A program made the position numbers and the translations under genes. A DNA stretch of 64,000 nucleotides, taken from contig NZ_CP038033.1 of the NCBI RefSeq assembly GCF_004421105.1, forward strand, positions 3,305,659 through 3,369,658, in the 5' to 3' direction. This stretch comes from Nitrosococcus wardiae. GTDB taxonomy: Bacteria; Pseudomonadota; Gammaproteobacteria; Nitrosococcales; Nitrosococcaceae. How positions within the stretch are numbered: the first letter of the stretch is position 1; every line of letters begins with the position of its first letter. Of the stretch, positions 59,281 through 64,000 are shown one piece after another. The notes under the pieces were generated by a model. The model was not told the origin of the DNA, did not search any database, and saw nothing but the letters and a program-made list of their open reading frames with translations.

Positions 59281-59292
59281 TGCTGACCCCTT

Positions 59293-60000
59293 ATGTGCGC
59301 GATCGGCACGCAGCAAGGCGGGCTGCTCTCGCCGTTGCTCGCCAATATCCTGTTGGATGACCTCGACCGGGAACTGGAACGGCGCGGTCACCGCTTTGCG
59401 CGCTACGCCGATGACCTGGTGATCCTGGTCAGAAGCCAACGCGCCGGTGAACGGGTCAAGGCCAGCATCACGGCGTACCTGACCGGCACGCTCAAGCTGA
59501 CGGTCAACGAGCGCAAAAGCCGCGTGGTGAAAACCAACGACTGTACCTTCCTCGGATTTACTTTCTACGGGAGCAAGCTGCGTTGGTCGAACCAAGCCTT
59601 CGAGGATTTCCGGCACAACGTCCGAAAATTGACCGGTCGTAGCTGGGGCGTCTTGATGGCCTTTCGGCTTCACAGGCTCGCCCAATACATCAGAGGCTGG
59701 ATGGGTTACTTCGGCATCTCGGACTACTACCGGCCTGTTCCCGAACTTGATCAGTGGATACGCCGGCGTGTGCGCATGTGCTATTGGAAACAGTGGCGCT
59801 ATGCACGAACGAAAGTGCGTCATCTTTTGGCATTGGGAACGAGCAAACGTCATGCGATCTTGACGGCGATCAGTAGCAAAAGTTACTGGCGCCTCTCCAA
59901 AACGCTGGCCACACAAACCGGGATGACCAACCAATGGCTGAAAGACCAAGGGCTGATATCTGTGCGTGATCTGTGGATGAAGGCACATGGCTATGTTTGA
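59293..60000 (+). pseudogene. group II intron reverse transcriptase/maturase, N-terminally truncated
   Basis: About 235 residues remain. They begin just before RT domain 4 (TQQGGLLSPLLANILLDDLD), include the YADD active site (FARYADDLVIL) and run through the thumb and maturase X domain (TFLGFTFYG, RLAQYIRGWMGYFGI). The N-terminal RT domains are lost, so the product is inactive. The usual Pro-Gln-Gly is Gln-Gln-Gly here. No start signal suggests expression. Confidence 0.85.
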
Positions 60001-60026
60001 TTATTCTGGTGTGCTTCCCTTCTCAT

Positions 60027-60097
60027 GAACCGCCCTGTGCGGACCCGCATGCAGGGTGGTGTGGGGACCGGGAGTTAGAAGCTCCCGGTTACCCGAT
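60027..60097 (+). ncRNA. group II intron 3' domains V-VI
   Basis: Domain V-like hairpin at 60027-60060: GAACCGCCCTGTGCGG, four-base loop, CGCATGCAGGGTGGT. Domain VI follows with an ACCGGGAG stem pairing with CTCCCGGT (60067-60090), ending in CCCGAT. This resembles the 3' end of bacterial group II introns. Confidence 0.75.
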
Positions 60098-60117
60098 TAG
60101 CACTCAACGGCACACCC
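60098..60117 (-). other. partial attC boundary interrupted by the intron
   Basis: On the minus strand, downstream of the ATPase stop, the sequence reads GTTGAGTGCTAA before the intron starts. This is what an R'' end of an integron attC site (TAAC core) would look like if the intron had inserted inside it. It is too short to prove on its own. Confidence 0.4.
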
Positions 60118-61848
60118 TCACTGAATCGCCAATGAAGCGCAAAAGTTCGTTCTCAACTCCGTCAATCGGTCTTCTGCAATAGCGTTGGACGTCAGCGCCT
60201 TCATAATTTCAATAGGCTTCTTATCGTCTCGTGGAACCGGGAGGCCGAGGAATGCCTCAAGACAGTTCTGAAACTTGACTGGTGGCGCTAGCGAAAAAGC
60301 GTTGGAACTGTTTTCAACTAGGTCGTTCACGGCGCCATAAAACTCAACATGAGGCCCCGCATTGTTGTCGTCGTCGAGCATAACGCCATGGGGAATGCCG
60401 AACACGTCGAGTAAAGCCAAATATCTATGGAAATTGAACTTGCCGAGGACATCTATCACGCAGATTTTGTGCGTGCTCAAGTCATGCCAATCATTGGCAA
60501 GCAAGTAGTTAAACAAAGCACGCTCTGACGCCCCCTCCACCAGGAGGACCTTATCTGCAAAAAACATCGACGACCGCTCGCCATCCAGCCACAACTGGAA
60601 CCGAAAACGCTCTTCTTGGACGGCTATATCGGCTTGTGGTGGATCGGCAATCATGCGCCTCGCCCTAGCTTTCTTGTTGTCCGCGATGGCTGGATCAGCC
60701 TCAAACGCGGTGAGCGCAGCGAGCAACTCCCCACCGCGCTGGAACACCTGATCAACTTGATCCTTGGAGGGCTGGTAGATCTGCGTAGTGCCGTTGCTTC
60801 TGTCAACCCGAGCTATTTGCCCAATGCTTTCACCGGCTTTACCCGCAAAGATCGGAGAATGGGACGTGACGATTACTTGCTGGCCAAGCTCCGAACTCAA
60901 CCTTCGCAAGTGAAACGCCATACATTCCTGCTGGCTAGGATGAAGGAACGCTTCTGGCTCCTCGAAAAGCACCAAATGAAAATCGGGGTTGAACTCCTTT
61001 TCTTTAGGCTTTTTTTCTTCCCTAAACGTTGGAGCAAGTCGGATCAGCTCGTATATCACCGACCGCTGGAATCCATGGCCATACTTATCCAGATCGAATG
61101 CGGCATTACCCAACGTAGTATCCAGGAATGCAAATTTCACCAGAGACTTTGTAATGTCTTCTGGGGCGACGGGGTTTACGGATAAGTCAATCTTGATCTT
61201 CCAGGGCTCGATGGCAGAGTTGAGCGGGCGGGAAACTTCGTTCAAAAAGCCATTCTTCTGATTTGCCTCGATGTTCAATTCCTCGAACGCATCTGTAATC
61301 TTCGCAAATGCCGGGCTCTTAGCAACAACCTTCTTCAGTAGAAAGTTGAGCATGTTGCGCAATGGCGACGGGCCACTCATCTTTGTGTTCTCGGCAGGAG
61401 TACTCAGAGCCGGAACATAAAGAACTTCTCCAACCTTTGCGGAGCTTACGTTCTTTGCGCCATAGAAAAGATTGTCGAGAATCTTTCCGTCAACCACGCC
61501 GTAAATGTTGCTCTGGTTAGCCTTTACTCGGTCTTTTTCATTAGATTTGAAATACCGTCTAACCGTGAGAAATTTTCCGCCGGTAGCTGATTTGTACTCA
61601 TCTGCCAACCCGTCCCACTCATCATCTGTCAGTTCAAACTGCAATTGCACCCAAGACTCTGCGTCTTTGGCTCCAATCTTTGGAAAGTCATGGGACGACC
61701 ATTTCTCATCATAGAAAGCCCTAAGGGCGTTTAGAACTGTACTTTTACCTGCGTTGTTTGCACCAACTAGGAGCATGTAGTCATGGCCCCGAAGCTCCCC
61801 GTCGATGATTGATCGATAGTTGTGTATGCGGGCTTTTGTGAGCTTCAT
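60118..61848 (-). CDS. OLD-family ATPase with TOPRIM domain
   Basis: A 576-residue protein. The ABC-type ATPase head has Walker A GANNAGKST (29-37), a signature-like segment YGHGFQRS (256-263), Walker B LVLFEEPEAFLHP (293-303) and a switch TSHSP (328-332). A C-terminal TOPRIM nuclease domain follows, with LLVEGASE (Glu 438) and the acidic LDDDN (491-495). This is the OLD/COG3593 architecture found in Gabija-, OLD- and some retron-linked defence systems. AGGAGG lies just before the ATG. It is the gene of the second cassette on the minus strand, followed by the intron-interrupted attC-like end, with a folded element upstream. Confidence 0.88.
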   Translation of the reverse strand: MKLTKARIHNYRSIIDGELRGHDYMLLVGANNAGKSTVLNALRAFYDEKWSSHDFPKIGAKDAESWVQLQFELTDDEWDGLADEYKSATGGKFLTVRRYFKSNEKDRVKANQSNIYGVVDGKILDNLFYGAKNVSSAKVGEVLYVPALSTPAENTKMSGPSPLRNMLNFLLKKVVAKSPAFAKITDAFEELNIEANQKNGFLNEVSRPLNSAIEPWKIKIDLSVNPVAPEDITKSLVKFAFLDTTLGNAAFDLDKYGHGFQRSVIYELIRLAPTFREEKKPKEKEFNPDFHLVLFEEPEAFLHPSQQECMAFHLRRLSSELGQQVIVTSHSPIFAGKAGESIGQIARVDRSNGTTQIYQPSKDQVDQVFQRGGELLAALTAFEADPAIADNKKARARRMIADPPQADIAVQEERFRFQLWLDGERSSMFFADKVLLVEGASERALFNYLLANDWHDLSTHKICVIDVLGKFNFHRYLALLDVFGIPHGVMLDDDNNAGPHVEFYGAVNDLVENSSNAFSLAPPVKFQNCLEAFLGLPVPRDDKKPIEIMKALTSNAIAEDRLTELRTNFCASLAIQ

Positions 61849-61877
61849 TCTCCCTCCTATTGTTTTTATTGAGTGCT

Positions 61878-62016
61878 AATCGGGGAGTTGACTGGCGGGT
61901 TCTCCTGCATACATAGAGGCACAGCGTCTGATTATGCGGGAGGTTCTGCCAGTCGAACGGTTGTTCGCGACGCGAAGCGGCGCAGGCAACCGTTTGGCAC
62001 AGTCAACTCCCCGATT
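61878..62016 (-). ncRNA. candidate structured RNA or folded DNA, three-way junction
   Basis: A perfect 17-base inverted repeat (AATCGGGGAGTTGACTG at 61878-61894 with its complement at 62000-62016) encloses two hairpins. Hairpin A pairs 61902-61911 with 61933-61942 (10 pairs). Hairpin B pairs 61947-61951 and 61956-61963 with 61995-61999 and 61987-61994 (13 pairs, with a four-base bulge). The three helices meet at a small junction. It lies 29 bases before the ATPase start. The closing helix recalls retron a1/a2 arms, but no reverse transcriptase follows it directly; an unusual attC is an alternative. Confidence 0.5.
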
Positions 62017-62021
62017 CGCGG

Positions 62022-62121
62022 CGCGAACGCTTGGGCTCACCGGCAACCAAAAGCGGAGTGGCTTGTAGCGAAGCGGAAAGCCGCGTAGCTTTTGGCTGTC
62101 CGGTGTAGCCCATTGTTAGAT
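62022..62121 (-). other. attC recombination site of the RT cassette
   Basis: The left core ATCTAAC (on the minus strand at 62121-62115) fits RYYYAAC exactly and contains the RT gene stop codon. The arms GGGCT, CACCGG and CCAAAAGC are mirrored by GCTTTTGG, CCGGTG and AGCCC, with unpaired bases between, and the site ends in AAGCGTT. The final core GTTCGCG fits GTTRRRY only partly, so the downstream half may be diverged. Size (~100 bases) and imperfect symmetry fit an integron attC. Confidence 0.75.
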
Positions 62122-63759
62122 TTTATATTTGTCATCACTCAACACATCTTCAAGCTCAGGGATTGTTAGGCAACCGTTATTACCAGCCTCTTTTCTCGCT
62201 CCTTCCAGAGCAATTCCTACTACGCTAGACTTCGAATCAATGATTGGACCGCCACTATTTCCTTCGCGAATAAGTGCATTAATTTCGAATTTTCTAACCA
62301 AACTTTGTGTGTAAATTTTCGCAACCTTGGTATCGACCATAAAATAACTGTGTCCAGGTGCATATGCCGGAAAACCCAGAAGCTTAACATCCTGACCCAT
62401 TTCTACATTATTTGCAGACCTCGAAACACTGTGTTTAGGTGGTTCTTTTCCTTCTTCAACCAGCAATGAACATATCGCAATATCTCTATGCGAGCATATC
62501 CTTTCAACCCTCAACTTATATTTTACTGTTGAGTCGTCATGCTTGAATGCCTCAAGGTCTTCAAATATCTTGCCTTTTTCCGATACTACGTGAGCACAAG
62601 TTACAATTCCAATATCTTCTAATTGGAATCCACTCCCTTGTGGAACCATAGCTTCGCCTTCCTCATTGTCATAACAAGCTTCAATTACCCATAATGCATT
62701 TATTGCATTTTTCTCTGGGTCGCTAGGTACTTTAATTTTGAATTTGTGCTCATCCGTTACTAGGTCATTGAATTGAGTAGCCAATTTTATGTATATTGGA
62801 TCTCGTTCCGTTTTGACACTTCTTAGAAAGGCGAGCTTGCCTTTCACAACATGCAAAAATGACTTTGGTTTCCCGGAAGCTCTATATCTTGTATCATATT
62901 TTTCATTAAAATCCTTTTCTGCTAATTCATATCCATGCTTTCTCCACGCATGTAACATTGAAGACAATTGCCTAACATATTTTCGTCTTACATTTGTGAG
63001 TTCATTTACCGTAAGGCCTGTGACTTCCATTCTAGAAAGCCTGCTGCACAAGCGAACTTTGTCATAATTTATAAAAAATCCATTTTCTTCGATAATATGC
63101 GTTAAGGCATGACCAGGGGCTGCTTCGCCACCTCTTAATATAACTATTTCTTCTGGCAGCCTGCCTTTAGTGGTGGTAAATGAAAAGCTAATATCATCTG
63201 CATATCTCGTATACGTCCCATTTGTCATCTTCGCCAAACTTTGCAACTGCGTATCAAGCTTCCACGCGATCATGTTTGAAAGGATTGGTGAGGTTGGCGC
63301 ACCTTGTGGAAGTGAATTATCAAAACAACAGATTTGAGCGAGGATGGTCGCAATACTGTTATTAAAGTTGAAAGGCGATGACTTAAACAGGTTTCTTATT
63401 CTTCCGAAATGTATTGAACCAAAAAAGTTTGACAAATCAATATTGAATATGAATCTTTTATCTAAATGCCGTTCCGCGTTTGTGACGATACTTTTATTCT
63501 TGGCAAATCCATGTGCAGATGGTTTTGATGGATATATTTCGTAAAACAGCTCTTTTAATTCACTTTGAATTTTCTTTAATTTTTTTGAAGGAGAGGCAAT
63601 TTCCCTATGCCCGCCATTCTTTTTAGGTATTTGGAACTGATGGTATTTATATACGCCGTCAGTTTTATATATTATTTTAGTTAATTTGGCATAAGACATG
63701 CCAAACATACTGGCCAGCTCATTATGTGTAGTTATTTTTAGAAAATCTTCTTTATTCAT
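62116..63759 (-). CDS. retron-type reverse transcriptase fused to trypsin-like protease
   Basis: 547 residues. RT domain (1-~330): catalytic Asp in FNIDLSNFF (~108), NAERH (94-98, the retron NAxxH signature), PQGAPTSP (151-158), YADD (186-189), VTG (247-249, the retron region Y signature). A C-terminal serine protease (~350-545) has an intact triad: His 390 in TCAHVVS, Asp 426 in HRDIAI, Ser 502 in EGNSGGPI. The RT should make satellite msDNA from the RNA encoded just upstream (63768-63913); the protease is the likely effector. It is AT-richer than the chromosome and its stop lies within an attC core, so it is a gene cassette. Known retron classes, from memory, include RT-trypsin fusions. Confidence 0.9.
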   Translation of the reverse strand: MNKEDFLKITTHNELASMFGMSYAKLTKIIYKTDGVYKYHQFQIPKKNGGHREIASPSKKLKKIQSELKELFYEIYPSKPSAHGFAKNKSIVTNAERHLDKRFIFNIDLSNFFGSIHFGRIRNLFKSSPFNFNNSIATILAQICCFDNSLPQGAPTSPILSNMIAWKLDTQLQSLAKMTNGTYTRYADDISFSFTTTKGRLPEEIVILRGGEAAPGHALTHIIEENGFFINYDKVRLCSRLSRMEVTGLTVNELTNVRRKYVRQLSSMLHAWRKHGYELAEKDFNEKYDTRYRASGKPKSFLHVVKGKLAFLRSVKTERDPIYIKLATQFNDLVTDEHKFKIKVPSDPEKNAINALWVIEACYDNEEGEAMVPQGSGFQLEDIGIVTCAHVVSEKGKIFEDLEAFKHDDSTVKYKLRVERICSHRDIAICSLLVEEGKEPPKHSVSRSANNVEMGQDVKLLGFPAYAPGHSYFMVDTKVAKIYTQSLVRKFEINALIREGNSGGPIIDSKSSVVGIALEGARKEAGNNGCLTIPELEDVLSDDKYKI

Positions 63760-63767
63760 AATAGGGT

Positions 63768-63913
63768 GGAAGGAGGTCTGGTAATTTCTCTTCTAAAACT
63801 GAGCGCATCCAGAGAGTCACAGTAACCATGGGCTCACGGTAAGCGTATAAGAGACACCTTTATTTGACCGCCGCAGATAGTCAGCGGAAATTAATTCCTC
63901 CAAACCTCCTTCC
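63768..63913 (-). ncRNA. candidate retron msr-msd RNA
   Basis: A 146-base segment directly upstream of the RT gene is closed by an inverted repeat: GGAAGGAGGTTTGG (minus strand, 63913-63900) with CCAGACCTCCTTCC (63781-63768), 13 of 14 paired. A second complementary pair, TAATTTC and GAAATTA, lies just inside. An msr-like hairpin CCGC-loop-GCGG occurs at 63871-63887. The rest would be the msd template. The position (9 bases before the RT start), a1/a2-like arms and hairpin all fit a retron RNA. The branching guanosine is not identified with certainty. Confidence 0.72.
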
Positions 63914-63928
63914 ATAACTCTTTTTTAA

Positions 63929-64000
63929 ATCTAACGCCTAAGTAAGTGGCCGGCCGCTGTTTGTCCGGTCCAAGCGCGCTTTTTGCGCGTGCTTGACTGC
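63929..64000 (-). other. 3' part of an attC site from the preceding cassette
   Basis: On the minus strand the sequence ends TTAGGCGTTAGAT, a perfect GTTRRRY core (GTTAGAT, 63935-63929) where cassette recombination cuts. A GC-rich hairpin (GCGCGC, five-base loop, GCGCGT type) precedes it, as in the variable part of attC. Its other half lies beyond the window. It places the start of the RT cassette at about 63934. Confidence 0.65.

Follow-up and report, generated by a model that had tools for sequence, protein, structure and literature searches.

Between a retron reverse transcriptase (RT) gene and an ATPase-TOPRIM gene of Nitrosococcus wardiae lies a strongly folded element, and the locus raises the question of what this element is and whether it belongs to either of its neighbors. 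We examined it within a 64,000-nucleotide stretch of the genome, referred to here as the window. An earlier note on this DNA had suggested a second RNA for the RT, a regulatory RNA of the ATPase, or an aberrant recombination site; the last of these fits our results, while the two RNA suggestions are unsupported. As set out below, the element is probably a copy of a miniature integron cassette that has no gene and forms a non-canonical attC-like site by folding of its bottom strand.

A strongly folded element between two integron cassettes

The 139 bases at 61878-62016 have a minimum free energy (MFE) of -90.3 kcal/mol as RNA, compared with -46.5 +/- 3.6 for shuffled sequences (z = -12.3), and of -47.5 as DNA, compared with -21.6 for shuffles (z = -9.7); in both cases, none of 200 shuffles folded as well. 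A three-way junction is closed by two arms, AATCGGGGAGTTGACTG (61878-61894) and CAGTCAACTCCCCGATT (62000-62016), whose 17 bases are fully complementary. On the + strand, the 5' arm of the closing helix occupies 61878-61893 in the fold (the 17-base complementary arm extends to 61894), hairpin 1 spans ca. 61894-61950, hairpin 2 spans ca. 61952-61998, and the 3' arm lies at 62000-62016. The apex of hairpin 1, which has many G.U/G.T pairs on the + strand, differs among copies of the element. The gene-sense end of hairpin 2, ACAACCG|TTCGAC, is an attC-like inner edge at which shorter "B" copies start. Within the 55-64 kb region of the window, the element is the strongest local inverted repeat. The strong fold noticed earlier, with its 17-base perfect closing helix and two hairpins, is thus confirmed.

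Read in gene sense (the minus strand of the window), the locus runs from a retron cassette through its canonical attC, which ends in G|, and a 148-bp gene-free unit to an ATPase cassette that starts with TT. The retron cassette (62028-63934) encodes a type XI RT fused to a trypsin-like protease (62116-63759, minus strand; Pfam, PADLOC). As judged from its sequence (ATCTAACAATGGG...CCCAAGCG|; 62028-62121, minus strand), the attC of this cassette begins with AAATCTAAC and closes with CCCAAGCG|, with an R'' box, AAATCTAA, that inversely repeats the start of the RT cassette, TTAGATTT; the type XI retron in the window is an integron cassette. Upstream of the RT, a 15-bp inverted repeat (63767-63781 / 63900-63914) likely marks the boundary of the retron RNA.

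The unit (61880-62027, minus strand; TTCGCGCCGCGAATCGGGGAG...CTCCCCGA) has the edges G|TT and GA|TT and starts with a TTCGCG..CGCGAA palindrome, which is shortened here (62017-62027, minus strand) and is a 10-bp inverted repeat in most other copies. No open reading frame of at least 60 amino acids lies inside the unit; one of 71 amino acids on the + strand merely runs across it. The next cassette starts with TTAGCACTCAA at 61879 and encodes an OLD/GajA-like ATPase-TOPRIM protein (60118-61848, minus strand; Pfam, PADLOC). An inverse copy of this start (61869-61879), reading TTGAGTGCTAA in gene sense, is found at 60097-60107, so that the two mark the cassette's ends. Given this order, the element lies between two cassettes and is part of neither gene. 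Its earlier description as an intercassette leader holds for the placement, but not for a leader specific to the ATPase. Similarly, 61878-62016 is right for the fold, but the natural unit is 61880-62027: the two leftmost bases are part of the ATPase cassette, and the unit extends 11 bases further on the right.

At the other end of the ATPase cassette, a 5'-truncated group II intron (59290-60097, + strand), with the C-terminal part of its maturase and domain V/VI (Rfam RF00029), has inserted into the R'' box of the attC in the opposite orientation to the cassettes. CCCGA precedes both ends of the ATPase cassette (60092-60097 and 61878-61884), once as the 3' end of the intron and once in the gene-less unit, possibly by chance.

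The edges of the unit are cassette junctions

The right edge was assessed in 39 usable copies by seeking, downstream, an inverse copy (plus C, as in an R'' box ...AAC) of the bases that follow CCCCGA. At the true junction, CCCCGA|TT, at least 7 nt were the inverse of a downstream attC R'' box in 20 copies, and at least 8 nt in 13, whereas shifted control positions gave only 0-4 copies with at least 7 nt. The exception was six copies at shift -12, which probably reflect the unit's own end recurring downstream. Similar cassettes that lack the unit begin with the same TT immediately after a canonical attC; for two cassettes compared over ca. 350 bp, identity was 85.9-96.9% (with the unit, L040 10932, vs without it, L034 12161, 96.9%, and L035 12967, 87.8%; likewise L045 2243 vs L033 14336, 85.9%). 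The inverse-repeat control and the unit-less cassettes together identify CCCCGA|TT as a cassette boundary.

Of 17 full copies, 15 have G|TTCGCG as their left edge and two lack this standard edge; the copy in the window stands directly after CCCAAGCG|. Behind similar attCs, either the unit or, with nothing between, another cassette comes next (L041 7832 vs L035 3799; 92.9% over 70 nt). In 13 of the 15 edge-defined copies, the start of the unit forms an inverse repeat of 6-10 nt with the GGCGCGAA that follows it, as cassette ends do. The shorter B copies, which start with G|TTCGAC at the inner edge formed by hairpin 2, are also found behind attCs.

An aberrant recombination site is an apt description in that the boundaries are cassette junctions and canonical attC features are missing. 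In place of the canonical core, RYYYAAC / G|TTRRRY, copies with intact ends have CGAATC / GA|TT, and an uninterrupted closing helix of 15-17 bp replaces the canonical extrahelical bases and unpaired central spacer. Thus, the unit is not a canonical attC in structure, but it behaves like one at its edges.

Two further observations concern such junctions. L003 10034-10076, in the window's genome, and L047 6947-6987, in a second genome of the genus (G001), have the same downstream cassette (98.3%) and on sequence grounds look orthologous; they differ by the presence or absence of exactly 29 bases (TTCGCGCCGCTTCGCGTCGCGAACAACCG) between both G|TT edges, a difference that slippage between GTTCG repeats could also have caused. 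In addition, a second repeated gene-less stretch, which is A+T-rich, occurs between cassettes and is often followed by the unit (L031 18100-18303, L041 15074-15215, L039 3163-3320, L043 5579-5723, and L033 7700-7840); it ends with AATAAATTG|TT or AATCAATAG|TT.

Copies occur across one genus and follow neither neighboring gene

The element was matched 51 times across four genomes of a single genus: 2 in G001, 23 in G002, 24 in G003, and the remainder in the window's genome (G000), where a second, partial copy lies ca. 1.1 kb from an intact integron integrase. Many of the matches are spaced like cassettes and many are partial; the other copies with both edges measure 147-161 bp. Two copies in G002, ca. 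4 kb apart, share an identical 138-base sequence within different flanks. A class-wide sample of 369 genomes, searched with stricter filters that could miss weak matches, contained the element in the window's genome and in none of the other 368, and neither the plasmid and phage collections nor the viral contigs gave a match. In a collection of genome contigs that seems not to include the window's own genus, a single exact-arm match was found (L061 1495-1620, Coriobacteriales); it has the same 11-base arms, but the palindrome between them is unrelated, and we rejected it as a relative.

This distribution bears directly on the two RNA suggestions. At E <= 1e-10, neither G002 nor G003, which together have 47 of the 51 copies, contains a match to the RT; G000 has a second retron-like RT, and G001 a distant one. 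G000 is the only genome of the genus with the ATPase; G001-G003, where 49 of the copies lie, gave no match to it. The earlier note had tied the ATPase idea to transcription of the element and to its presence upstream of homologous ATPases. The latter was not found: the ATPase has relatives in four other genera (four genomes of the class-wide sample), all in genomes without the element, and none in the viral contigs. The best-folding strand is opposite to both genes, and the element neither regularly accompanies the RT nor folds best on its strand, as a retron ncRNA (msr-msd) should. The element is thus specific to neither the ATPase nor the RT, and is not tied to the neighboring defense genes.

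Full-length integron integrases were matched in G000, where an intact one lies near 1.03 Mb, in G001, and in G002, whereas G003, despite having the most copies (24), has broken integrase genes only. Because all integrases in G003 are broken, movement of the unit there may be past. Broken integrases (in-frame stop or split frames) are located at G000:C1:3601991-3602932 and at G003:C2:85919-86660 and 1201782-1202622, and those in G003 adjoin arrays that carry the unit. The window's own array has no integrase nearby.

The bottom strand folds better than the gene strand

Recombination of attC sites by the integrase IntI uses the folded, single-stranded bottom strand (PMC2727003), which corresponds to the + strand of the window. 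Among 16 aligned copies, this strand folds with -65 to -97 kcal/mol, compared with -50 to -75 for the gene strand, and it is favored in all 16; DNA parameters give the same direction. An RNAalifold consensus of the gene strand was poor in structure. The + strand folds better because of G.U/G.T pairing: the aligned copies have 163 such pairs on the + strand vs 17 on the gene strand, and the hairpins alone account for 158 vs 16 wobble cells. By column pairs in the hairpins, 26 have G.T on the + strand and 7 the opposite (p = 0.001, with columns treated as independent though the copies are related), whereas the closing helix has no wobble bias. A set of canonical-looking attCs from the same arrays, which includes some false sites, had 169 vs 159 wobble pairs and thus no clear bottom-strand bias. 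The bias is therefore not a general attC trait and is no proof of attC function, but the fold of the + strand is probably what matters.

Proposed explanation and its alternatives

The unit most likely moves by the integron's own recombination enzyme. We read this from where its edges fall, from loci that occur both with and without it, from the inverse repeat that its start forms, and from IntI genes found in the genomes. According to this scheme, the ca. 150-bp unit, which is too short for a gene, would fold on its bottom strand as single-stranded DNA into the closing helix and two hairpins, and this structure would act as a degenerate attC. IntI would attach the unit behind the G of an attC (G|TTCGCG), and the next gene cassette would be received at the unit's far edge (CCCCGA|TT). 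We infer that the fold is an IntI substrate and that the main effect of the unit would be its own spread, with at most a secondary influence on the downstream cassette.

By known rules, the A|TT in place of a GTT core, together with the missing extrahelical bases and unpaired central spacer, would make the unit a poor IntI substrate. A bolder version of the scheme, which we offer only tentatively, is that the unit is a miniature integron parasite: a three-way-junction ssDNA substrate with an A|TT core, accepted by IntI against the attC rules and spread genus-wide. If IntI does take a branched substrate that has neither extrahelical bases nor a GTT core, then attC recognition is broader than the accepted rules allow, and cassettes will escape attC finders that apply these rules.

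We also considered whether the three-way junction is transcribed, acting as a small RNA or as a 5' leader that regulates the cassette behind it, which we regard as unlikely. The very strong fold, G.U-rich on one strand, and the position of the unit just upstream of many cassette gene starts are what such an RNA would have, and there is precedent for an sRNA from an ORF-less cassette (sRNA-Xcc1, cited in PMC6557892). However, a leader would be made of the worse-folding strand, because the cassette genes lie antisense to the strand that folds well. The upstream flank of the + strand is a different cassette each time and thus provides no common promoter, and no sigma-70-like site was found in three copies. 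An Rfam scan of the unit gave nothing above the curated threshold, the only hit being a sub-threshold, 25-bit microRNA match. Compensatory covariation on the bottom strand amounted to one pair with five cells, which is not above shuffles, and no RNA-type covariation is therefore claimed.

Since the unit stands directly before many different cassette genes, it could affect their expression, and it might be kept as a promoter or insulator that sets the expression of the downstream cassette, as gene-less cassettes do in Vibrio. In both Vibrio and Treponema, gene-less cassettes are reported to have promoter activity (PMC11014356, PMC6557892). As the main explanation this is distinctly unlikely, because a sigma-70-like promoter was seen on neither strand of the three copies scanned, and because the ca. 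150-bp unit consists almost entirely of folded arms, whereas the Vibrio examples measure 491-666 bp. Promoter and terminator scans gave nothing in the window copy and one terminator-like palindrome in L046. In silico prediction is said to fail, and a role of their high A+T content is discussed for Vibrio (PMC11014356). A promoter role is compatible with the gene-less cassette as a second role.

More doubtful still is a miniature inverted-repeat transposon whose unknown transposase would target attC/cassette junctions. The multiple copies and the near-perfect terminal inverted repeats of 15-17 bp would suit such an element, and the flanking TTs could represent a 2-bp duplication; IntI would leave such flanks too. 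Against it, G|TT edges of the IntI type are exactly where both the TTCGCG..CGCGAA palindrome and the shorter B copies begin, and nearly all full copies are inserted at attC junctions. Non-exhaustive searches found neither a parent element with these ends nor a link to a transposase.

Finally, the idea that the element is a second template RNA used by the retron RT, or a regulator dedicated to the ATPase, has only the location between the two genes in its favor and is highly improbable, being already contradicted by copies that mostly lie in genomes without a match to the RT (G002, G003) or the ATPase (G001-G003) and by ATPase relatives of other genera in genomes without the element.

Comparison with known systems

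Gene-less integron cassettes are already known; the unit described here is much smaller and consists nearly wholly of folded site. Like the ORF-less cassettes of Vibrio and Treponema (PMC11014356, PMC6557892), the unit is gene-free, has attC-type junctions, and lies in arrays before gene cassettes. The cassettes chosen for the Vibrio study, however, are 491-666 bp long and have a separate attC of 101-127 bp (PMC11014356), whereas the unit measures 147-161 bp and consists almost only of the folded site. It also differs from the Vibrio cassettes in having many copies per genome and neither canonical attC features nor a visible promoter. The ORF-less Xanthomonas cassette RNA sRNA-Xcc1 (PMC6557892) is likewise non-coding and located in an integron cassette. 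The unit shows no sign of a promoter, and an Rfam scan at E <= 1 gave no match to this RNA.

The unit shares with integron attCs (PMC2727003) a palindromic sequence, location at a cassette junction, a better-folding bottom strand, a putative crossover point beside TT, and inverse cassette ends. It differs from them in its three-way junction, in having A|TT for G|TT, in the lack of an extrahelical base and of an unpaired central spacer, and in its length of ca. 148 bp, compared with the known range of 57-142 (PMC2727003). MITE-type elements are similarly short and multi-copy, with terminal inverted repeats, but the edges of the unit coincide with integron crossover points. A multi-copy, gene-free cassette of this kind would be the integron's counterpart of a MITE.
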